Positions 79-9,465 of a stretch of DNA of 64,000 nt are shown one piece after another. Every line of letters starts with the position of its first letter. Within the stretch, counting starts at the first letter, position 1. The notes under the pieces were generated by a model, which saw only the letters and a program-made list of their open reading frames with translations, ran no database searches and had not been told where the DNA came from. A program made the translations under genes and the position numbers. The stretch comes from an uncultured Bacteroidales bacterium (GTDB lineage Bacteria; Bacteroidota; Bacteroidia; Bacteroidales; UBA932), in contig CAJOHX010000004.1 of assembly GCA_905234475.1 (NCBI GenBank), positions 1 to 64,000 of the forward strand. Direction: 5' to 3'.

Positions 79-948
79 TTAGTCGTCCTGGGCCTCGCCG
101 CCGTCGATGGTGGAGCCGGCGACCCAGTTGTTGATGGTCATGGAGCCGAGGTCGATCCGGTCGCGGCCGATGTTCAGGTTCACCGTGGTGTACTGACCGC
201 CCGCCAGGGGGATGTCGGCGCTGTGGGTGAAGACGTAGTCCTTGCCGTCGATCGTGATGGTGAGGGTGCGCAGGCCCGTCTGGGGAACCTGCAGGCCGCT
301 CCAGGCGGCGTCGGACTTCTTGGAGAGGGCCACTTTGGCGGCCTCGCCGGTGGCGGTCACCGGCGCTGCGGCCAGGTAGTTGACCGTGGCGGTCTTCTTG
401 GCCGTGGCCGTGACGGCGGAGACTGTCGGGGTGGTCTCCCACTGGTTGCGGAAGTTGAGATTGACGTCCAGCCGCGCCATGGCGTGGCCGAAGGTCAGGG
501 CCACCGGGGTGGCCGAGGCTTTGAGGCCGGTCGCGTTCACGGCAATCATCAGGTCCGAGGCCTTGTAGTCATCGGGATCCAGGGTGAAGGGATCGGCCGT
601 AAAGTCTTTGACCGTGCGGACGGGATGGATGCCGAGGAAGTAGTGCGGCGAGGAGACGTCTTCCCAGAGCATCTGGGCGGCGGGGGTCCATTTGACTCCG
701 TCGTAGGTGTTCACGACACCGTCCACCACGCGGGTGGCGGGGACTTCCGTGGCGCTGCCCGTCCAGGCGTAGACGGTGATCTGGTCTTTGGCGTCGAAGG
801 TCGCCTTGTCGCCGGTGGTGGAGACTTTGGTCATCGCTCCGATGCCGGCCTGGATGGTGATCTCCCGGGTACGGCCGGGGAATTTGTCGCAAGCGGCGAG
901 AGCCAGGAGGGCGGCCGCGGCGGCGAAGTATTTGATAAGTGTCTTCAT
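79..948 (-). CDS. fimbrillin family lipoprotein (paralog 1)
   Basis: MKTLIKYFAAAAALLALAACDKFPG lipobox; strongly similar to 992..1867 (SDAAWSGLQVPQTGLRTLTITIDG). Confidence 0.8.
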   Translation of the reverse strand: MKTLIKYFAAAAALLALAACDKFPGRTREITIQAGIGAMTKVSTTGDKATFDAKDQITVYAWTGSATEVPATRVVDGVVNTYDGVKWTPAAQMLWEDVSSPHYFLGIHPVRTVKDFTADPFTLDPDDYKASDLMIAVNATGLKASATPVALTFGHAMARLDVNLNFRNQWETTPTVSAVTATAKKTATVNYLAAAPVTATGEAAKVALSKKSDAAWSGLQVPQTGLRTLTITIDGKDYVFTHSADIPLAGGQYTTVNLNIGRDRIDLGSMTINNWVAGSTIDGGEAQDD

Positions 949-961
949 ATTCGTTTTGCTT

Positions 962-991
962 GGAGATCCCCGATCAAGTCGGGGATGACGG
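962..991. repeat. palindromic element
   Basis: ggagatccccgatcaagtcggggatgacgg. Confidence 0.75.
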
Positions 992-1867
992 TTAGGAGGC
1001 AGGTTTAAAGACATCGCCGCCGTCAATAGAGGTGCCGGCTTGCCAGTCGGTGATGACAATAGAATCGAGCTCAATCGTGTCACGGCCCATGGTCAGGTTC
1101 AGCGTAGTGTACTGGCCTCCCACCAGAGGGATGTCGGCGCTGTGGGTGAAAACGTAGTCCTGTCCGTCGATCGTGATGGTGAGGGTGCGCAGGCCCGTCT
1201 GGGGGACCTGCAGGCCGCTCCAGGCGGCGTCGGATTTCTTCGCCAGAGCTACTTTGGCGGCATCGCCGGTCGGCGTGACGGCCGCGCTCAGCAGGTCCAC
1301 CGTGGCGGCCTTTTTGGCCGTAGCCGTGACGGAGGAGACCGTCGGGGTGGTCCCCCACTGGTTGCGGAACGCAAGGTTGACGTCCAGCCGCGCCATGGCG
1401 TGGCCGAAGACCAGCGCCACCGGGGTGGCCGAAGGGGTAAGGCCGATCAAGTTCGTGGCGAGCAGGAGGTCGGAGGCTTTCTGGTCCGCTGGATCCAGGG
1501 TGTACGGGTCGGCCGTGAAGTCCGTGATGGTGCGGAGCGGATAGACGCCGAGGAAGTAATGGGCCGACTCGTCGTCGTCCCAGAGCATCTGGGCGGCGGG
1601 GGTCCACTTGCCGTCGGTGCCGAGGGTGTTGGCGACGCCGTCCACCGCGCGTGCGGCAGGGACGGCCGTCTTGTCGCCCGTCCAGGCGAAGACGGCGATC
1701 TTGTCGCCCGCCTCGAAGGCGGCTTTGTCGCCGGTGGTGGCGACCTTGGTCATGGCGCCGATGCCGGCCTGGATGGTGATCTCCCGGGGGGTGCCGGAGA
1801 ATTTGCCGCAGGAGGCGACGGCCAGCAGGGCGGCCGCGGCGGCGAGGTATTTGATTATTGGCTTCAT
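992..1867 (-). CDS. fimbrillin family lipoprotein (paralog 2)
   Basis: MKPIIKYLAAAAALLAVASCGKF lipobox; fimbrillin-like ITIQAGIGAMTKVATTGD start and GRDTIELDSIVITDW end. Confidence 0.8.
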   Translation of the reverse strand: MKPIIKYLAAAAALLAVASCGKFSGTPREITIQAGIGAMTKVATTGDKAAFEAGDKIAVFAWTGDKTAVPAARAVDGVANTLGTDGKWTPAAQMLWDDDESAHYFLGVYPLRTITDFTADPYTLDPADQKASDLLLATNLIGLTPSATPVALVFGHAMARLDVNLAFRNQWGTTPTVSSVTATAKKAATVDLLSAAVTPTGDAAKVALAKKSDAAWSGLQVPQTGLRTLTITIDGQDYVFTHSADIPLVGGQYTTLNLTMGRDTIELDSIVITDWQAGTSIDGGDVFKPAS

Positions 1868-1880
1868 ATTCATTTTGCTG

Positions 1881-1910
1881 GGAGATTCCGGGTCAAGCCC
1901 GGAATGACGA
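1881..1910. repeat. palindromic element
   Basis: ggagattccgggtcaagcccggaatgacga. Confidence 0.8.
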
Positions 1911-2786
1911 TTACTCGGTGGGTTTGAAGATTTTTCCGTTGAGGTCGTCGCCCTGGCTGGTCCAGTCGGCGATGGAGATGTCCGAGGCGAGCTCGATCGT
2001 GTCGCGCCCGAGGAGGAGGTTGAGCGTCGTCACCTTCCCGCTCGCGAGGGGGATGCTTTCGCCGTGGGTGTAGACGAAGGCCTGGCCGTCGATCGTCACG
2101 GTGACGGTCTTCATCCCCTCCTGGGGAACCTGCAGGCCGGCCCAGGAGGCATTGTCCGTCTTGGCGAGGTCCACTTTGACGGCATCGCCCGTGGCCGTGA
2201 CGGCTTTGGCGAGGAGGTCCACCGTGGCGGTCTTTTTGGCCGTGGCCGTGACGGAGGCGACTGTCGGGGCGGTCTCCCACTGGTTCTTGAACGCGAGGTT
2301 GACCTTCAGTTTCGCCATCATGTGATCAAAGACCAGCTCCACGGAGGATTCCGATGAGAGGAGGCCCTCCAGGTTCGTGGCGACCAGCAGGTCGGAGGCC
2401 GCCTGGTCCGCCGGGTCCAGGGTGTACGGATGGGCCTTGAAAACCGTCACCGTCTGCACCGGCCAGAGGCCGAGGAAGTAGTGTATCGAGGCCTCGTCCG
2501 CCCAGCGCATCGGGGCGGCGGGGGTCCATTTGTCACCATCGAAGGTGTTGACGACGCCGTTCACCATGGGCGAGGCGGGGATGGTCGTCTTGCTGTTCGT
2601 CCAGGCATAGACGGCGATCTGGTCGCCCGCCTCGAAGGCGGATTGGTTGCCGGTGGTCTCGACTTTGGTTTGCGGGCCGATGGCGGCCGTGACAGTGATC
2701 TCCCGGGGGCTGCCGGGGAATTTGCCGCAGGCAGACAGAGACAGGAGGGTCGCTGCGGCGAGGAGGTATTTGATTGTTGGTTTCAT
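1911..2786 (-). CDS. fimbrillin family lipoprotein (paralog 3)
   Basis: MKPTIKYLLAAATLLSLSACGKFPG; same architecture as neighbouring paralogs. Confidence 0.8.
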   Translation of the reverse strand: MKPTIKYLLAAATLLSLSACGKFPGSPREITVTAAIGPQTKVETTGNQSAFEAGDQIAVYAWTNSKTTIPASPMVNGVVNTFDGDKWTPAAPMRWADEASIHYFLGLWPVQTVTVFKAHPYTLDPADQAASDLLVATNLEGLLSSESSVELVFDHMMAKLKVNLAFKNQWETAPTVASVTATAKKTATVDLLAKAVTATGDAVKVDLAKTDNASWAGLQVPQEGMKTVTVTIDGQAFVYTHGESIPLASGKVTTLNLLLGRDTIELASDISIADWTSQGDDLNGKIFKPTE

Positions 2787-2800
2787 ATTCCTTTTGTTTC

Positions 2801-2830
2801 GGAGATTCCGGGTCAAGCCCGGAATGACGA
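2801..2830. repeat. palindromic element
   Basis: ggagattccgggtcaagcccggaatgacga. Confidence 0.8.
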
Positions 2831-2838
2831 TGATTAAG

Positions 2839-3714
2839 CTATTCGGGATCGGTGACGGTGCCGTTGATGGTCCAGGCGTCGGTCCAGTCGTTGATGGCGG
2901 AGGAGGATACGGTCATCTCGGGCAGGAGGTCGTTGTAGTCCAAATTAAGATTGTAAGCTTTGCCGCCCTGCATGACCGGGCCGGTGACATTGAAGGAGCC
3001 CTCCACGGAGCCGTCAGCGCCTACTTTATTGATGGTGATGGTGCTGTGCTCCTGGCCGGAGGCCGTGGGCATCAGGTTGATGGTACCGCCATTGTCGCAT
3101 TTGATCTCGCCAGGGTCGACCTCATCGGACGGACGGCCCTGGCGGCCGTTGTCGTCGACCGCCGTGAGATCCAGGGTCTGGGCGGCATTGGTCACGTTAG
3201 CCGTGAGATGCATATCGGCCGGCACGTTGTTGACGTTGACCGACAGCTTCGCGAGCGCGCGGCCGAGGTTTATGGGCTGAACCGTGGCAGATCCCGGGCG
3301 TATGGGAGCCACGCCAGAAAAGACATCGTAGCCAGCTATAAGTCTGAGTATTCTCGCTCTGACCATGAAGCCGAACAACTTGGTAGGGGGCAGACCCTCG
3401 AGCTGGAAGCCGTCGGCCTCCGACATGTTGACGGTGACCAGTACTTCGTAGTCTCCCTCGGGAAGCTGCTGGAGCTCGCTCGAGACCGCCTCCACGCTGG
3501 TGAACTCCCGGGTGTAGGAGACACCGGAGCCGTTTACGACCAAGTAGACGTGGTGGACGGGGGTGCCGGCGTCTTCGGCCCGCTCCCAGCGGAGCGTCGG
3601 AGCGAAGCCGACGGTGCCGGGCTGCAGGTCGTGGTTATCGTGGAAGCAGCCCGTCAGGAGGAGCGTTGCGGCCGCAGTGGCCAGGATAATGTTTCCTTTC
3701 ATGGCTGTCGTCAT
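2839..3714 (-). CDS. FimB/Mfa2-like fimbrial anchor lipoprotein
   Basis: lipobox LLLTGCFHDNHD; position between OmpA-like gene and fimbrillins; ATGA overlap with upstream gene. Confidence 0.65.
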   Translation of the reverse strand: MTTAMKGNIILATAAATLLLTGCFHDNHDLQPGTVGFAPTLRWERAEDAGTPVHHVYLVVNGSGVSYTREFTSVEAVSSELQQLPEGDYEVLVTVNMSEADGFQLEGLPPTKLFGFMVRARILRLIAGYDVFSGVAPIRPGSATVQPINLGRALAKLSVNVNNVPADMHLTANVTNAAQTLDLTAVDDNGRQGRPSDEVDPGEIKCDNGGTINLMPTASGQEHSTITINKVGADGSVEGSFNVTGPVMQGGKAYNLNLDYNDLLPEMTVSSSAINDWTDAWTINGTVTDPE

Positions 3715-4979
3715 TTTGCGAATCTGATTTCGGCGCGACGGGCGGTCTGCGCGTCGGGCGCGTTGTAGTCGATGCCGTGGTAGTAGGCCTTGACGATGCG
3801 CTCCGGGGCGACGCCGTGGGCGATGTACCATTGGCGGACCGCCTCCATGCGGCGCTCAGTGAGCTTCTCGTTATATGCCGCGCTGCCGCTGCGGGAAGCG
3901 TAGGCGTGGATCTCCAGCTGGAAGTCCGGGTAGCGCTCCAGGATCGGGAGGGCCGTCTCCAGCGAGGAGGCATAGGCGTCTTCGACGCTGCTGCTGTTGT
4001 TGGCGAAGTAGACCGTCGGGATGGGCGTCTGGAAGGCCTCTTCCTTGGCCACGGCAGCGGCCTTTTCGGCGGCCTCGCGCTCAACACGCTCGCGCTCCAG
4101 GCGTTCGCGTTCGGCGCGCTGCGCCGCCTCGCGTTCCGCTTTTTCGCGGGCGGCCTGCTCGGCCGCGATGCGCTCACGCTCCGCAGCTTCCCGTGCCAGG
4201 CGCGCGGCTTCTTCCGCGTCCTTGATGGTGGTGGGGTTGGCGGGCTGGCCGTACTCCCGGGCTTCGCCCAGGCTGCAGGCCAGCCGGACGCCGGCGTCCC
4301 AGAGGAGGTTGCTCCTGTGGGCGTGCTCCGGGATGTTGTCGAAACGCTCGCCGGTCAGGCACGTGATGCCGCTGTAGAGCGCAGCGCTCAGGCGGCTGCC
4401 GATGGGGATGCCGAAGCTGGCTTCCCCGCCCCAGCCCAGGTGCCACTGGCGGGGCTGGCCGATCTGTTTGTCCGGGGCGACGAGCACCGTCCGCGTGGTC
4501 ACGGCGGCGATCTGCGGGGAGAGGTTCAGCGACCAGCGGCTGCCCGGCTTCGTGAAGAGGCTGAGCAGGTTGACATTGGCCTGGAGGGCCACCTTGCCCC
4601 ACTGCGTCGCAGTGCGCAGGTCTTCGTAGGCCCAGCCCGTTTCGTCCAGGACGGGAGAGAAATAGCGGATGCCGTCTTCCGACAGCCAGTAGGGGCAGCA
4701 GTCCAGCGCGAACTGGCTCTGGCCGCCGTACTGGACGCCGAGCTCCACGGACAGGAGGCGGTTCAGGCCGATGCCGGCGAAGGCTCCGCCCTGGGCACCC
4801 CAGTGGATGCCGTCTTCGGTGATGCTGCGGAAGGTGGCCTGCCCGAAGGAGGTGCCACCCCGAACGCCCACGTACCAGCGGTACTCTGCAGGCGCGAACG
4901 CCTGCCCCCACGCGCCTTGCGCGGCGCACGCGCACACGATAAGCGCCGCCAGCAGGGGTTTATTCTTTAGATGGATCAT
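3711..4979 (-). CDS. outer-membrane protein with C-terminal OmpA-like domain and long charged helical linker
   Basis: signal peptide; VYFANNSSSVEDAYAS...LTERRMEAVRQWYIAHGV...RRAEIRFAK OmpA-like motif; E/A/R-rich helix in the middle. Confidence 0.75.
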   Translation of the reverse strand: MIHLKNKPLLAALIVCACAAQGAWGQAFAPAEYRWYVGVRGGTSFGQATFRSITEDGIHWGAQGGAFAGIGLNRLLSVELGVQYGGQSQFALDCCPYWLSEDGIRYFSPVLDETGWAYEDLRTATQWGKVALQANVNLLSLFTKPGSRWSLNLSPQIAAVTTRTVLVAPDKQIGQPRQWHLGWGGEASFGIPIGSRLSAALYSGITCLTGERFDNIPEHAHRSNLLWDAGVRLACSLGEAREYGQPANPTTIKDAEEAARLAREAAERERIAAEQAAREKAEREAAQRAERERLERERVEREAAEKAAAVAKEEAFQTPIPTVYFANNSSSVEDAYASSLETALPILERYPDFQLEIHAYASRSGSAAYNEKLTERRMEAVRQWYIAHGVAPERIVKAYYHGIDYNAPDAQTARRAEIRFAK

Positions 4980-5732: not shown

Positions 5733-6578
5733 CTACGGCAAAAGGTTGATGATTTTGCGGGTTGCTTCCTCAGGGAGGGCGGTGTGGTAAGCCATGTCAA
5801 AGACATAGGGCACCTTGACGGCGTAGAACGGGAGCAGGCGACGGGTGAAGCTTTCCAGCGCCTGCGCGTCGGTCGTCCCCAGGTAGGCCGGGAGGAAGAT
5901 GTTCCAATGGGCGGTGAGGGTCTCGGGACTCACGTGGAAGAGGTCCTCGGCCCGGGTCTTGTCCATGTTGTGGCACATGGTCCACAGGATGGACAGGTCC
6001 CATTCGGGCAGTCCGTAGCTGAATTCACCCACATCGATCCACCAGACGCCCTTGCCGTCGGTGATGATGTTCCCGAAATGGAGGTCGCCGTGCAGGCAGG
6101 TGGCGGCGTCCGGGACCTTCTCGATGAAAGCCAGGGCACGCTGCCGGTAGGCCTCGGGGACCAGGTCCTTTTCCAGATAGAATTGCCGCAGGGCCTGCCG
6201 GTAGGAGCGCAGGCGCGAGGGGTCCGCCGCCCGGGCATGGAGCGCGCGGGCCTGCCGGGCGAATTCCAGGGAGATTTCTTCGAGCCGCGCCGGCTCTTCG
6301 GAGACGATGCGCGTGAAGGAGCGTTTGCCGGGAATGAATTCATATTCAGCGCCGAAGCGCTCTCCGTCCGTCACCAGGCGATAGGGCTCCGGCGTGGAGA
6401 TGCCCATTTCGAAAACGGTGCGGGCTGTCAGGAATTCCGCTTCCGCCCTGTCTGCCTCGAAGCCCGGGTTGTAGAGCTTGGCCATGGTGTTGCGGGACTT
6501 GTGTTTGTAGGAAACAGCCGTTCCGCCTTCACCGCTGCGGACGTACTCGTCCAGGTCAATGGTTTCGTAGGATTGCAT
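5733..6578 (-). CDS. aminoglycoside phosphotransferase-like kinase (TIGR02172-like)
   Basis: CLHGDLHFGNIITD and WWIDVGEFSYGLPEWDL kinase motifs. Confidence 0.7.
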   Translation of the reverse strand: MQSYETIDLDEYVRSGEGGTAVSYKHKSRNTMAKLYNPGFEADRAEAEFLTARTVFEMGISTPEPYRLVTDGERFGAEYEFIPGKRSFTRIVSEEPARLEEISLEFARQARALHARAADPSRLRSYRQALRQFYLEKDLVPEAYRQRALAFIEKVPDAATCLHGDLHFGNIITDGKGVWWIDVGEFSYGLPEWDLSILWTMCHNMDKTRAEDLFHVSPETLTAHWNIFLPAYLGTTDAQALESFTRRLLPFYAVKVPYVFDMAYHTALPEEATRKIINLLP

Positions 6579-6784
6579 GGGTGCAAATTTAAGCCACAGA
6601 ACCAGTAAATCCAAATCTTTGCAAAGTGGCTGAGAATAAAAGAAGACGGACACCAATTAGGGGTAGTGTCCGTCTTTCAAAGTTCGCTAATGAATTATCT
6701 ATATGATAACACTGCAAAGGTAGAGAAAAAAAATGAACCCGCAAGTCATCTCCTTACGAATGTTGTATAACACTTTTGTATAAC

Positions 6785-6816
6785 AAAAAGACAACCTCTT
6801 GCGAAGCTGTCTTTTT
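6785..6816 (-). terminator. hairpin terminator, probably the original tRNA-Leu terminator displaced by an insertion
   Basis: aaaaagaca...tgtcttttt 9-bp stem immediately downstream (minus strand) of a 14-bp tRNA-Leu 3'-end copy. Confidence 0.6.
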
Positions 6817-6829
6817 GTGCCTCGGGCGG
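6816..6829. repeat. putative att copy (tRNA-Leu 3' end duplicate)
   Basis: tgtgcctcgggcgg identical to 9379-9392. Confidence 0.6.
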
Positions 6830-6936
6830 AAGCTAAATAACTGGTGGCTATCGTGTATTCTTGGTGGCTATCAAACTATTTGTATATCAAGTGGTTGAAT
6901 TATATCAGCGGAGTATTCAAATAATAAGCGGAAAAG

Positions 6937-6985
6937 GTGACCAAAAGTGACCAAATTTTAAAGGAGGTGACCAAAAGTGACCAAA
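6937..6985 (+). repeat. four GTGACCAAA direct repeats
   Basis: copies start at 6937, 6947, 6967, 6977 (10-bp phased). Confidence 0.75.
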
Positions 6986-7021
6986 GAATTCTATCAATAA
7001 TTGATGGTCAGATGATGCGCC

Positions 7022-7045
7022 ATATAAGAATATTTCTTATATTTG
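7022..7045 (+). promoter_or_regulatory. parDE promoter/operator: 21-bp palindrome overlapping -7 box TATATTTG
   Basis: ATATAAGAA-tat-TTCTTATAT perfect 9-bp arms (7022-7042); TATATTTG 7038-7045. Confidence 0.6.
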
Positions 7046-7063
7046 TTGCAAATATTGATAGAA

Positions 7064-7312
7064 ATGAAAACAACTACTGTTGCATTAGGGTCTCATTTTG
7101 ACGAATTTATCCAGGCCAGCGTTCTTGGCGGCCGTTACACGAACGCCAGTGAGGTGATTCGTGCCGGGCTCAGGAGGCTGGAAGAAGATGAGCAGAAGAT
7201 AGCAGCTCTCCGTGCTGCCATAGAGGAAGGTGAAGCAAGCGGGTATGTCGAAGACTTTGACTTCGAATCCCACTTGGAGGAGTTGAAGGCAAAACGGAAG
7301 AACAATGGCTAA
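7064..7312 (+). CDS. parD: ribbon-helix-helix antitoxin, ParD family
   Basis: VALGSHFDEFIQASVLGGRYTNASEVIRAGLRRLEE. Confidence 0.85.
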   Translation: MKTTTVALGSHFDEFIQASVLGGRYTNASEVIRAGLRRLEEDEQKIAALRAAIEEGEASGYVEDFDFESHLEELKAKRKNNG

Positions 7313-7601
7313 GATCAGATTATCCAGAAAGGCAATAGCCGATTTGGATGGCATTTGGGACTATACCGCCCAAACCTGGTCGGAAGGACAGGCGGTCATC
7401 TATTATCGGCAGATATATGGCGCTATTCAGGGATTGAACAATCTGCCTGTTTTCCTTGAAAAGAGATATGACGTCATAAAGCCGGGGCTCTTTGGTTTTA
7501 AGGTAGGGCACCACATCCTTTTTTACAAAAAGGGCAACAATGGCTCCATTAGCGTAGATCGTATCCTCCACGAGAAGATGGACTATCAAAGACACCTGTA
7601 A
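7305..7601 (+). CDS. parE: ParE/RelE-family toxin
   Basis: RLSRKAIADLDGIWDYTAQTWSEGQAVIYYRQI; overlaps parD by 8 bp. Confidence 0.85.
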   Translation: MAKIRLSRKAIADLDGIWDYTAQTWSEGQAVIYYRQIYGAIQGLNNLPVFLEKRYDVIKPGLFGFKVGHHILFYKKGNNGSISVDRILHEKMDYQRHL

Positions 7602-7641
7602 TACTTGGATTCGATAAATCGGAATTTAACCACTTAATAAC

Positions 7642-7848
7642 ATGGGCAGTTTCTGGAACAAGACAAAAGTGTTTTTTGAATCGAGAGGATGGCGCATCTT
7701 CTGGTCATTGTTTGTCATCGCCGTTTTCGTCAACTTATTGCAGATGGATTGGTTCCGTGTGGTCCTCCTCATCACGCTTCTCATCTTTGTCATAAGGAGA
7801 GTATTCGAGATTGTGCAGGCCATTAAATCTAAAGCGAAGGACCAGTAA
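7642..7848 (+). CDS. small membrane protein (68 aa)
   Basis: two hydrophobic segments; downstream of parDE. Confidence 0.5.
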   Translation: MGSFWNKTKVFFESRGWRIFWSLFVIAVFVNLLQMDWFRVVLLITLLIFVIRRVFEIVQAIKSKAKDQ

Positions 7849-8067
7849 ATTCACTATTTATTTACTAGTATTGAACGACATTTAATCGTGTCTAGTTTTA
7901 GACGTTATTTACGCACCTAATGGAAGTTTTACGCTTAATCACTTATGAATCACCCGTGACAGAGGTCATTGAGGTCATGTTGGAAGGCATTGTCTGTGCC
8001 AGTGGAGAGGTCCCTGATATGGAACACGGCTGGGATTTGGACTTTTAACCTATTGAAAAACTGCAAG

Positions 8068-9117
8068 ATGAAACGCATCCTAACGAGTGTTTTAATGACG
8101 GCCTGCGCGGCCGTGCTGATGAGTAGCTGCCAGAAGACGCCGGCCGAAAAGAAGGAAGGCATTCCGATGACAATTCAGGCGTCCGTAATCGCTCCGGCGA
8201 CCACGAAGACGATTTATGAATACGACACGGAAGACAGGACGCTGAAAGGCTCCTGGGACTCGGAAGAGTCCATCACGGTGGTCTCTTTCGGCCGGGACGG
8301 CATCACGGCCATCGATATCTTCACTTCTACCGGGGAGGCCGGCCGCAAGAAGGCGGAATTCTCCGGTACCTGGACCGAAAACGAAGGGGACAAGGTCATC
8401 TGCCTGTATCCGTCCTTGGATACGTACGCGGGCAATTCGATCTTCGATGGCGTGAGGCTGTACTCTCCGACCATTTATATGAGGAGTCTTTCGACCGCTT
8501 CGGGCGCCCTGCAGCACGATGATCCGTCTTCTATCTCCGATGTCGACCTGATGCTGGGTGAGGTGCTGATCTCCGGCGATGTCGCCCACGTGTACCTGGA
8601 GCACCAGCTCGCCGTGTTCCGCATCGAGGTGACCCTTAGGAACTTCCCGTACGAGGCGCCTCCCGGTTCGCCCTTCGACCAGGCAAGGGTCAATTCCATC
8701 CGCATCAAGTGCGTCGATCCCGATTCGGAAGAAGAGGAAGAGTGGGGCGTGAATGGCGATCCGGTCTTTGTCCGGATGTCCGGGCTGGATGTGACCACCG
8801 GAAGCTACACGGGGGAGCCCTTCACGATCGAGCGGGGACCGCTGGACTATTACCTGCTCGACAGCGGCAACAACAGCGATCTCACGCTGATGGAGGAGGA
8901 TGTGGTTGAAAAGACTTTCTTTGTGCCCGTCCGCTTCGACAAGGATCTCGAGGCGGGATATGAACTCTGTCTCCAGTTCGGCGGCAACTATTACGACGAC
9001 GAGGAGGAACGCCGGAATTCGGTCACCGTGTTCCCGGGCTGCGACATGCGGAAGACGATCACGAGCAAGCTCTCGCTTGAAAATGGTAAAATCTACGGCC
9101 TCAAGGTAACCATATAG
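8068..9117 (+). CDS. fimbrillin-like lipoprotein (orphan)
   Basis: MKRILTSVLMTACAAVLMSSCQK lipobox; fimbrillin-like architecture. Confidence 0.65.
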   Translation: MKRILTSVLMTACAAVLMSSCQKTPAEKKEGIPMTIQASVIAPATTKTIYEYDTEDRTLKGSWDSEESITVVSFGRDGITAIDIFTSTGEAGRKKAEFSGTWTENEGDKVICLYPSLDTYAGNSIFDGVRLYSPTIYMRSLSTASGALQHDDPSSISDVDLMLGEVLISGDVAHVYLEHQLAVFRIEVTLRNFPYEAPPGSPFDQARVNSIRIKCVDPDSEEEEEWGVNGDPVFVRMSGLDVTTGSYTGEPFTIERGPLDYYLLDSGNNSDLTLMEEDVVEKTFFVPVRFDKDLEAGYELCLQFGGNYYDDEEERRNSVTVFPGCDMRKTITSKLSLENGKIYGLKVTI

Positions 9118-9334
9118 GCTTATATCCTGTCTGAAGTCCTTTTTGATTGCATTTGCGGCTAACTCTACGCTGCGATATAAACTCTTTTTATATCACAACA
9201 ATCCCGGCCAGCTGGATCTGAGTAAATATCAAGTCCACATATTTTTGATGATACACGTACGGAGTGAGGTCGCTGGAAAAGGGTTCTTAAATGTGGTCAA
9301 ATTGTGACCAAATTTGGTGAATAGAAAAATTAAA

Positions 9335-9373
9335 GACTTTGTAAGTGCTTGAATATTGGCAACATACAAAGTC
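9335..9373. repeat. inverted repeat gactttgta/tacaaagtc next to the putative att site
   Basis: 9-bp perfect arms 9335-9343 and 9365-9373. Confidence 0.6.
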
Positions 9374-9380
9374 ATTAATG

Positions 9381-9465
9381 TGCCTCGGGCGGGACTCGAA
9401 CCCGCACGGCCGTTTCGGGCCAAGGGATTTTAAGTCCCTCGTGTCTACCATTCCACCACCAAGGC
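9381..9465 (-). tRNA. tRNA-Leu(TAA)
   Basis: GCCTTGG...ACTTAAAAT...GGTTCGAGTCCCGCCCGAGGCA; 7-bp acceptor stem, long variable arm, no encoded CCA. Confidence 0.93.

Follow-up and report, generated by a model that had tools for sequence, protein, structure and literature searches.

CIMEs (cis-mobilizable elements) retain both attachment sites, attL and attR, lack integration and transfer genes, and form tandem series next to the 3′ end of their target gene (PMC5704250). NBU1 and MTnPi4 are tabulated in the same source as Bacteroidetes IMEs that target the 3′ end of a tRNA-Leu gene, and NBU1 is listed with a toxin-antitoxin system. The ssrA islands of Dehalococcoides are likewise arranged in tandem and are bounded by 20-bp copies of the target-gene 3′ end, 15 of them being devoid of an integration module (PMC3146451). 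Furthermore, in the additive flexible genomic island of Methylophilaceae, copies of the last 20 bp of tRNA-Lys precede variable islands that start from 330 bp in size (PMC10872708). This report is focused on a 2.6-kb element in the window, i.e., the whole 64,000-nucleotide stretch analysed (positions 1 to 64,000 of contig CAJOHX010000004.1 of an uncultured Bacteroidales bacterium). An earlier note on this DNA proposed insertion of an element at the 3′ end of tRNA-Leu with rebuilding of the tRNA, and this proposal is borne out by relatives, in which tandem elements with the same ends and the same core carry other cargo. Positions 6817-9379 probably constitute one integrase-less integrative cassette, which entered through site-specific recombination by a tyrosine recombinase at tRNA-Leu(UAA).

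Boundaries of the Element

The element is bounded by two copies of a 14-nt core, tgtgcctcgggcgg (6816-6829 and 9379-9392), and the core-to-core interval between the displaced core and the 3′ end of tRNA-Leu(UAA) is 2,563 bp (Table 1). The repeat had been noticed previously within the window, and a search of the whole 2,310,805-bp genome for TGTGCCTCGGGCGG returned exactly these two exact copies, with 0 matches to the reversed-pattern control in the same genome; the repeat is therefore not abundant genome-wide by chance, a case considered in the earlier note. By our estimate, approximately 0.02 second exact 14-mers are expected by chance per genome, and the chance of one within 2.6 kb of the tRNA is approximately 1e-5. 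From left to right, the left core is followed by two TGGTGGCTATC repeats, two GTGACCAAA pairs, parD, parE, the gene for the 68-aa membrane protein, the 42-aa ORF, the 349-aa lipoprotein-like gene, one arm pair, a hairpin, and the tRNA. The G+C content is 40-46% in the first half of the element (about 6.5-8 kb) and at its right end versus approximately 63% around it.

Table 1. Coordinates of features at the tRNA-Leu(UAA) locus, numbered within the window.
Feature	Position	Strand	Remarks
Hairpin/terminator left of displaced core	6784-6817	-	-17.5 kcal/mol, z -6.3
Left attachment core	6816-6829		Displaced tRNA-Leu(UAA) 3′ end; exactly two genome copies
Left-end direct repeats TGGTGGCTATC, +25 and +45 from core	6842-6872	+	Shared left ends
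Left arm-type repeats, two tandem pairs GTGACCAAAAGTGACCAAA, +120 and +150	6937-6985	+	Pattern unique to this place in the genome
parD antitoxin gene	7067-7312	+	PF03693, 6.7e-28; TIGR02606
parE toxin gene	7305-7601	+	PF05016, 1e-13
68-aa predicted membrane protein	7642-7848	+	DUF2633 match, sub-threshold
42-aa ORF upstream of lipoprotein gene	7920-8048	+	Also precedes lipoprotein homologues elsewhere
349-aa fimbrillin-like lipoprotein gene	8068-9117	+	Copies at other loci; no family match
Right arm-type repeats GTGGTCAAA / GTGACCAAA, about -87 and -76 from tRNA core	9293-9312	+	Shared right ends
Right-end hairpin abutting tRNA, T-rich tail on tRNA strand	9329-9379	-	-14.7 kcal/mol, z -4.6
tRNA-Leu(UAA), 3′ end = right core	9380-9465	-	Single copy in assembly

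The tRNA-Leu(UAA) gene is the sole UAA copy detected, and the two other matches in the genome, approximately 78% identical, are tRNA-Leu(CAA). Elsewhere in this genome (G000:C28:33542-34817, L148), two complete tRNA-Leu(CAA) genes lie approximately 1.19 kb apart with an ORF of approximately 317 aa between them and a hairpin after each 3′ end; this arrangement may reflect a comparable insertion in which the entire tRNA was duplicated.

Integration at tRNA-Leu(UAA) in the Genus

The tRNA was matched in 89 of 101 genomes of the genus, and in relatives tandem copies of its 3′ end bound elements of approximately 0.9-7 kb. Elements accrete in tandem, as in G073 (four elements of 1154, 1267, 1546, and 7159 bp), G037 (three elements of 1989, 4785, and 1372 bp), and G160 (1400, 1090, 15191, and 5496 bp), and elements are also present in G048 (5391 bp), G027 (2188 bp), and G016 (2757 bp). 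On the 5′ side of the tRNA, mrd/mre genes recur (RodA-like at 16 loci), and on the 3′ side there is no common gene besides cassette cargo, which is found at varying distances; the synteny on one side only is that of a one-sided integration hotspot. In G241 (L118:3250-3361), a 56-bp partial duplicate of the 3′ part of tRNA-Leu directly precedes the intact tRNA.

An empty site, in which tRNA-Leu directly precedes the terminator at 6785-6816, had been expected in relatives and was found in none of them, and among the 101 genomes searched through the neighbouring APH gene (5736-6575), none showed a strict empty-site allele that retains this left flank. Orthologues of this gene, up to approximately 74% identical, lie away from tRNA-Leu with unrelated upstream sequences, and the original left flank could therefore not be fixed. 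The absence of an empty site with identical flanks and the non-syntenic left flank in relatives would suit an ordinary chromosomal region without any site-specific insertion, in which the second copy of the tRNA end arose by chance or through recombination; this explanation is nevertheless hardly credible, given that the core occurs exactly twice in the genome, the architecture is repeated in dozens of genomes, the G+C content is atypical, and ParDE is transferred horizontally, and it is already contradicted by the termini shared among elements with different cargo.

The tRNA-Leu(UAA) gene of the window is intron-free. In many genomes of the genus, an intervening sequence of 212-739 nt separates U34 from A35 of this gene (e.g., L076:370-1180, L081:1204-1501, L078:1685-2172, L100:1650-2459, L110:12485-12787, and L119:8445-8756); the cyanobacterial and plastid intron occupies this position. 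Two of these introns score above the gathering score of the Rfam group I model RF00028, and five more fall below it at 6e-7 or better. Both introns of approximately 725 nt that were examined contain a homing-endonuclease-like ORF with an HNH motif, and the one tested against Pfam matched PF01844 at 1.5e-5. A limited literature search found no report of a group I intron in tRNA-Leu(UAA) of Bacteroidales.

Termini and Hairpins

Ends of fixed geometry are common to elements with unrelated cargo. In 32 distinct left ends, the left-end repeat is located at exactly +25, in 25 of them also at +45, and the arms are located at +119/120, +130, +149/150, and +160; in 29 distinct right ends, the arm pair is mostly located near -86/-76. 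The left end was found in 21 of 300 genomes of the genus (reversed control pattern, 0) and also in 14 contigs of GTDB Bacteroidales/Bacteroidia/Paludibacteraceae MAGs, several of which are titled rumen or omasum. The right end was found in 45 of the 300 genomes, nearly always adjoining a displaced core or a tRNA-Leu gene, namely the UAA gene or, twice, the CAA gene. Furthermore, GTGACCAAANGTGACCAAA occurs at 19 sites in 232 genomes, 17 of which are at fixed offsets from a core, with no match to the control. The matching of left and right arms within elements is weak (15 of 46 versus 10.2 after shuffling; 33 of 500 shuffles reach 15). A viral origin was considered and rejected, the left-end pattern being absent from IMG/VR and the lipoprotein being without a viral relative.

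The intact tRNA had been described as lacking an obvious terminator; in fact, the right-end hairpin and its T-rich run begin right at the tRNA 3′ end. Of 29 homologous right ends, 27 fold into the long stem of this hairpin, with stems counted singly, sequence by sequence, and the outer bases of the stem vary (ATTAA/TTAAT, AACAA/TTGTT, AAATC/GATTT, and AAACC/GGTTT); the retention of the stem despite these differences points to selection for the hairpin, which may represent a replacement terminator carried in by the element. The hairpin left of the displaced core, also reported previously, is real (0 of 200 shuffles fold as well), although its identification as the native tRNA terminator is not established, with no relative carrying the tRNA directly before it. 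It could be the native terminator or, equally, mark the right end of an older element adjacent to this one; the former reading is unproven because the right ends of other elements share the layout of repeat pair, hairpin, and core, and a TTGTATAAC pair adjoins. This pair, TTGTATAAC-N5-TTGTATAAC at 6763-6771 and 6777-6785, resembles the arm pair of a right end, and an older element may accordingly lie further left.

Cargo Genes

The ParDE pair recognised in the earlier note is confirmed by the profile matches given in Table 1. The label "fimbrillin" is not upheld, the 349-aa protein being without a Pfam, NCBIfam, or PDB match; since its N-terminus is of lipoprotein type and no family is matched, "fimbrillin-like lipoprotein" denotes resemblance only. 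A single-sequence structure model of this protein (pLDDT 34) is unusable. The window contains three further tandem paralogous fimbrillin-like lipoprotein genes on the minus strand near the contig end (79-2816).

The same 2.6-kb content, a case that the earlier note had also considered, was not seen in relatives, where ParDE alone recurs with differing neighbours and positions. The parDE DNA is 88.6, 87.9, and 86.9% identical to that of G160, G073, and G016, respectively, versus 75, 76, and 76% for mreB, and 92-97% identical in two pieces to that of G221, versus 75-76% for mreB. As parDE identity is 87-97% against 75-76% for mreB, ParDE moves horizontally. The lipoprotein gene has copies in 14 further species that are approximately 84-93% identical at the DNA level, and these lie at loci that lack the core and have differing flanks; the similarity spans from about 7850/7962 to 9119/9210, and in G265 the gene again follows an arm pair. 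Together with the small upstream ORF (7850-9210; L329-L342), it moves as a unit of its own and is found at many loci in the genus, and the present element is probably a ParDE cassette that also acquired this second mobile gene.

Source of the Integrase

The element was previously said to have no integrase, and none was found in it or in the left flank of the window by ORF, Pfam, and local profile searches; a tyrosine integrase is also absent from the whole contig. No mobilization or relaxase gene is present, and the element encodes only ParD, ParE, and the 68-aa and 349-aa proteins, in addition to the 42-aa ORF. Among 46 candidate core-to-core elements of <8 kb, a list that includes some chance cores, an integrase was detected in one, a 3.8-kb element of G030 in which it lies beside the tRNA, and in none of the other 45. 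Larger elements at the same core encode a tyrosine recombinase of approximately 450 aa (G160, G221, G149, G184, G067, G225, and G282). The 15.2-kb element of G160 (L106:14147 to L206:8337; G160:C7:62146-77336) contains the integrase with excisionase-like and type I restriction-modification genes and is probably a defence island at the same hotspot.

Tandem repeats with a period of 10-11 bp, GTTGTCCAA, GTTTGCCAA, GTTTACCAA, and TCGGCAAAA, are generally located near the start of the integrase where the core and an integrase are both present, and they are laid out like the arms of the cassettes. The GTTGTCCAA arms belong to the G160 type of integrase, GTTTGCCAA to the G149/G067 type, and TCGGCAAAA to the G225/G282 type. 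Arms of the GTTTGCCAA or GTCGGCAAA kind are also seen in right ends at tRNA-Leu in other genomes. In two genomes, G160 and G221, an integrase-bearing element directly adjoins, at a shared core, the right end of a cassette of this family. An integrase with GTGACCAAA arms was found neither among 50 integrases of the G160 type nor at 19 arm sites, and we therefore infer the identity of the helper; viral-contig matches obtained in this search look unrelated and were set aside. The genome of the window encodes three PF00589 proteins, one of them near tRNA-Ala, and none matches the G160 type; as the assembly is 86% complete, a helper integrase could be missing from it. Furthermore, integrases of the same family lie at L228, L230, L232, L250, and L253 beside another core, GTGAT[CT]CGGTTGGGA, which could itself be a tRNA 3′ end, from a gene other than tRNA-Leu, and the same system may use a second tRNA.

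At L259 (JAFUVU010000046.1, reverse strand, approximately 170-3900), a cassette left end precedes a 411-aa hydrolase-like gene, after which comes an integrase remnant, i.e., the C-terminal 104 aa, 98% identical to the G160 integrase, with its downstream AlbA-like and excisionase-like genes. This locus is a fusion of a cassette and an integrase element. Such a junction of a cassette left end with a truncated integrase and its downstream genes would be expected of a CIME formed by decay, namely a remnant of an autonomous tRNA-Leu element that has lost its integrase and transfer genes, has kept its two att sites, and moves, if at all, with a neighbouring element. Remnants of this kind are known in tandem arrays (PMC5704250; PMC3146451), and integrase-bearing full elements occupy the same site, so that decay is a possible, if doubtful, origin; it accords less well with the different single- or few-gene cargos between the same long ends and with the 45 small candidate elements without a detected integrase, and the exchange of common-ended cassettes is more parsimonious than a separate decay for each cargo.

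The housekeeping recombinases XerC and XerD, acting in place of an element integrase in insertion and excision, are highly unlikely agents. The genome G016 (98% complete, 8 contigs) does carry a cassette of this kind with only two PF00589-detectable tyrosine recombinases, probably XerC/D, but past visits by mobile integrases would explain this genome. The site is moreover a tRNA 3′ end and not dif-like, and arm-type repeats are characteristic of integrases with an arm-binding domain, of which PF17293 is weakly present in the G160 integrase.

Under the preferred reading of a single cassette inserted by a tyrosine recombinase, the core of a circular form would have recombined with the 3′ end of the single-copy tRNA-Leu(UAA) gene. 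The last approximately 13 nt of the rebuilt tRNA are those that the cassette brought with it, the cassette hairpin would have been set behind them as a new terminator, and the old 3′ end was displaced by 2.56 kb. The GTGACCAAA arms, present at both ends at fixed distances from the cores, are presumed integrase-binding sites, and the integrase itself would presumably have come from larger elements at the same tRNA, either in trans or by accretion. ParDE would have a stabilising role, and the cassette might also be excised. More broadly, in a proposal that falls somewhat short of being probable, tRNA-Leu(UAA) may anchor an integron-like system, in which a shared pool of integrase-less cassettes with standard ends and one to few genes is exchanged between species, with integrases from resident or visiting elements acting in trans to insert them in tandem. 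If cassettes are mobilised in this manner, one essential tRNA gene serves as a plug-in site for a gut genus, through which species can exchange toxin-antitoxin, acetyltransferase, hydrolase, and lipoprotein genes that need no integrase of their own. The core, left repeats, and arms provide a readable signature for such cargo in metagenomes, and the way in which arm repeats pair with integrases amounts to a code that can be tested directly.

Comparison With Known Systems

Membership in the NBU group, as suggested in the earlier note, is unsupported. The cassette agrees with NBU-type IMEs in its target, the 3′ end of tRNA-Leu, alone; NBU1 and MTnPi4 encode a tyrosine integrase, and NBU1 also a relaxase, whereas the cassette has neither an integrase nor a mobilization gene. 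With tycheposons it has in common the tRNA border and not the tyrosine recombinase. The Dehalococcoides islands are larger and involve a serine recombinase and the tmRNA gene, in contrast to tRNA-Leu and tyrosine recombinases here. For the tRNA-Lys islands of Methylophilaceae, the accessible part of the report describes no conserved internal ends or matched integrases, unlike the present cassettes. The likeness to CALINs (PMC11389934) consists in arrays of small gene cassettes that lack an integrase and are in principle movable in trans, although the cassette sites here are tRNA 3′-end cores flanked by arms and by a terminator hairpin, and not the attC sites of CALINs and integrons. A limited literature search found no published tRNA-Leu arrays in Bacteroidales, and such absence of a prior report is weak evidence given the limits of the search.

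The closest likeness is to CIMEs. Two attachment sites bound the cassette, one of them within the end of the target gene, and integration and transfer genes are lacking. As regards derivation by deletion from an ICE or IME with the same att sites, elements with an integrase exist at the same core, but none has the same arms as the cassette; as regards mobilisation in cis by accretion, integrase elements adjoin cassettes in G160 and G221. Compared with streptococcal tRNA/ICE CIMEs, many cassettes here are 0.9-7 kb in size, with varied cargo and long conserved termini that include arm repeats. The element thus works like a CIME and shares both CIME features that were compared; CIME-like cassette arrays are known, and the standardised ends on many small cassettes are new.
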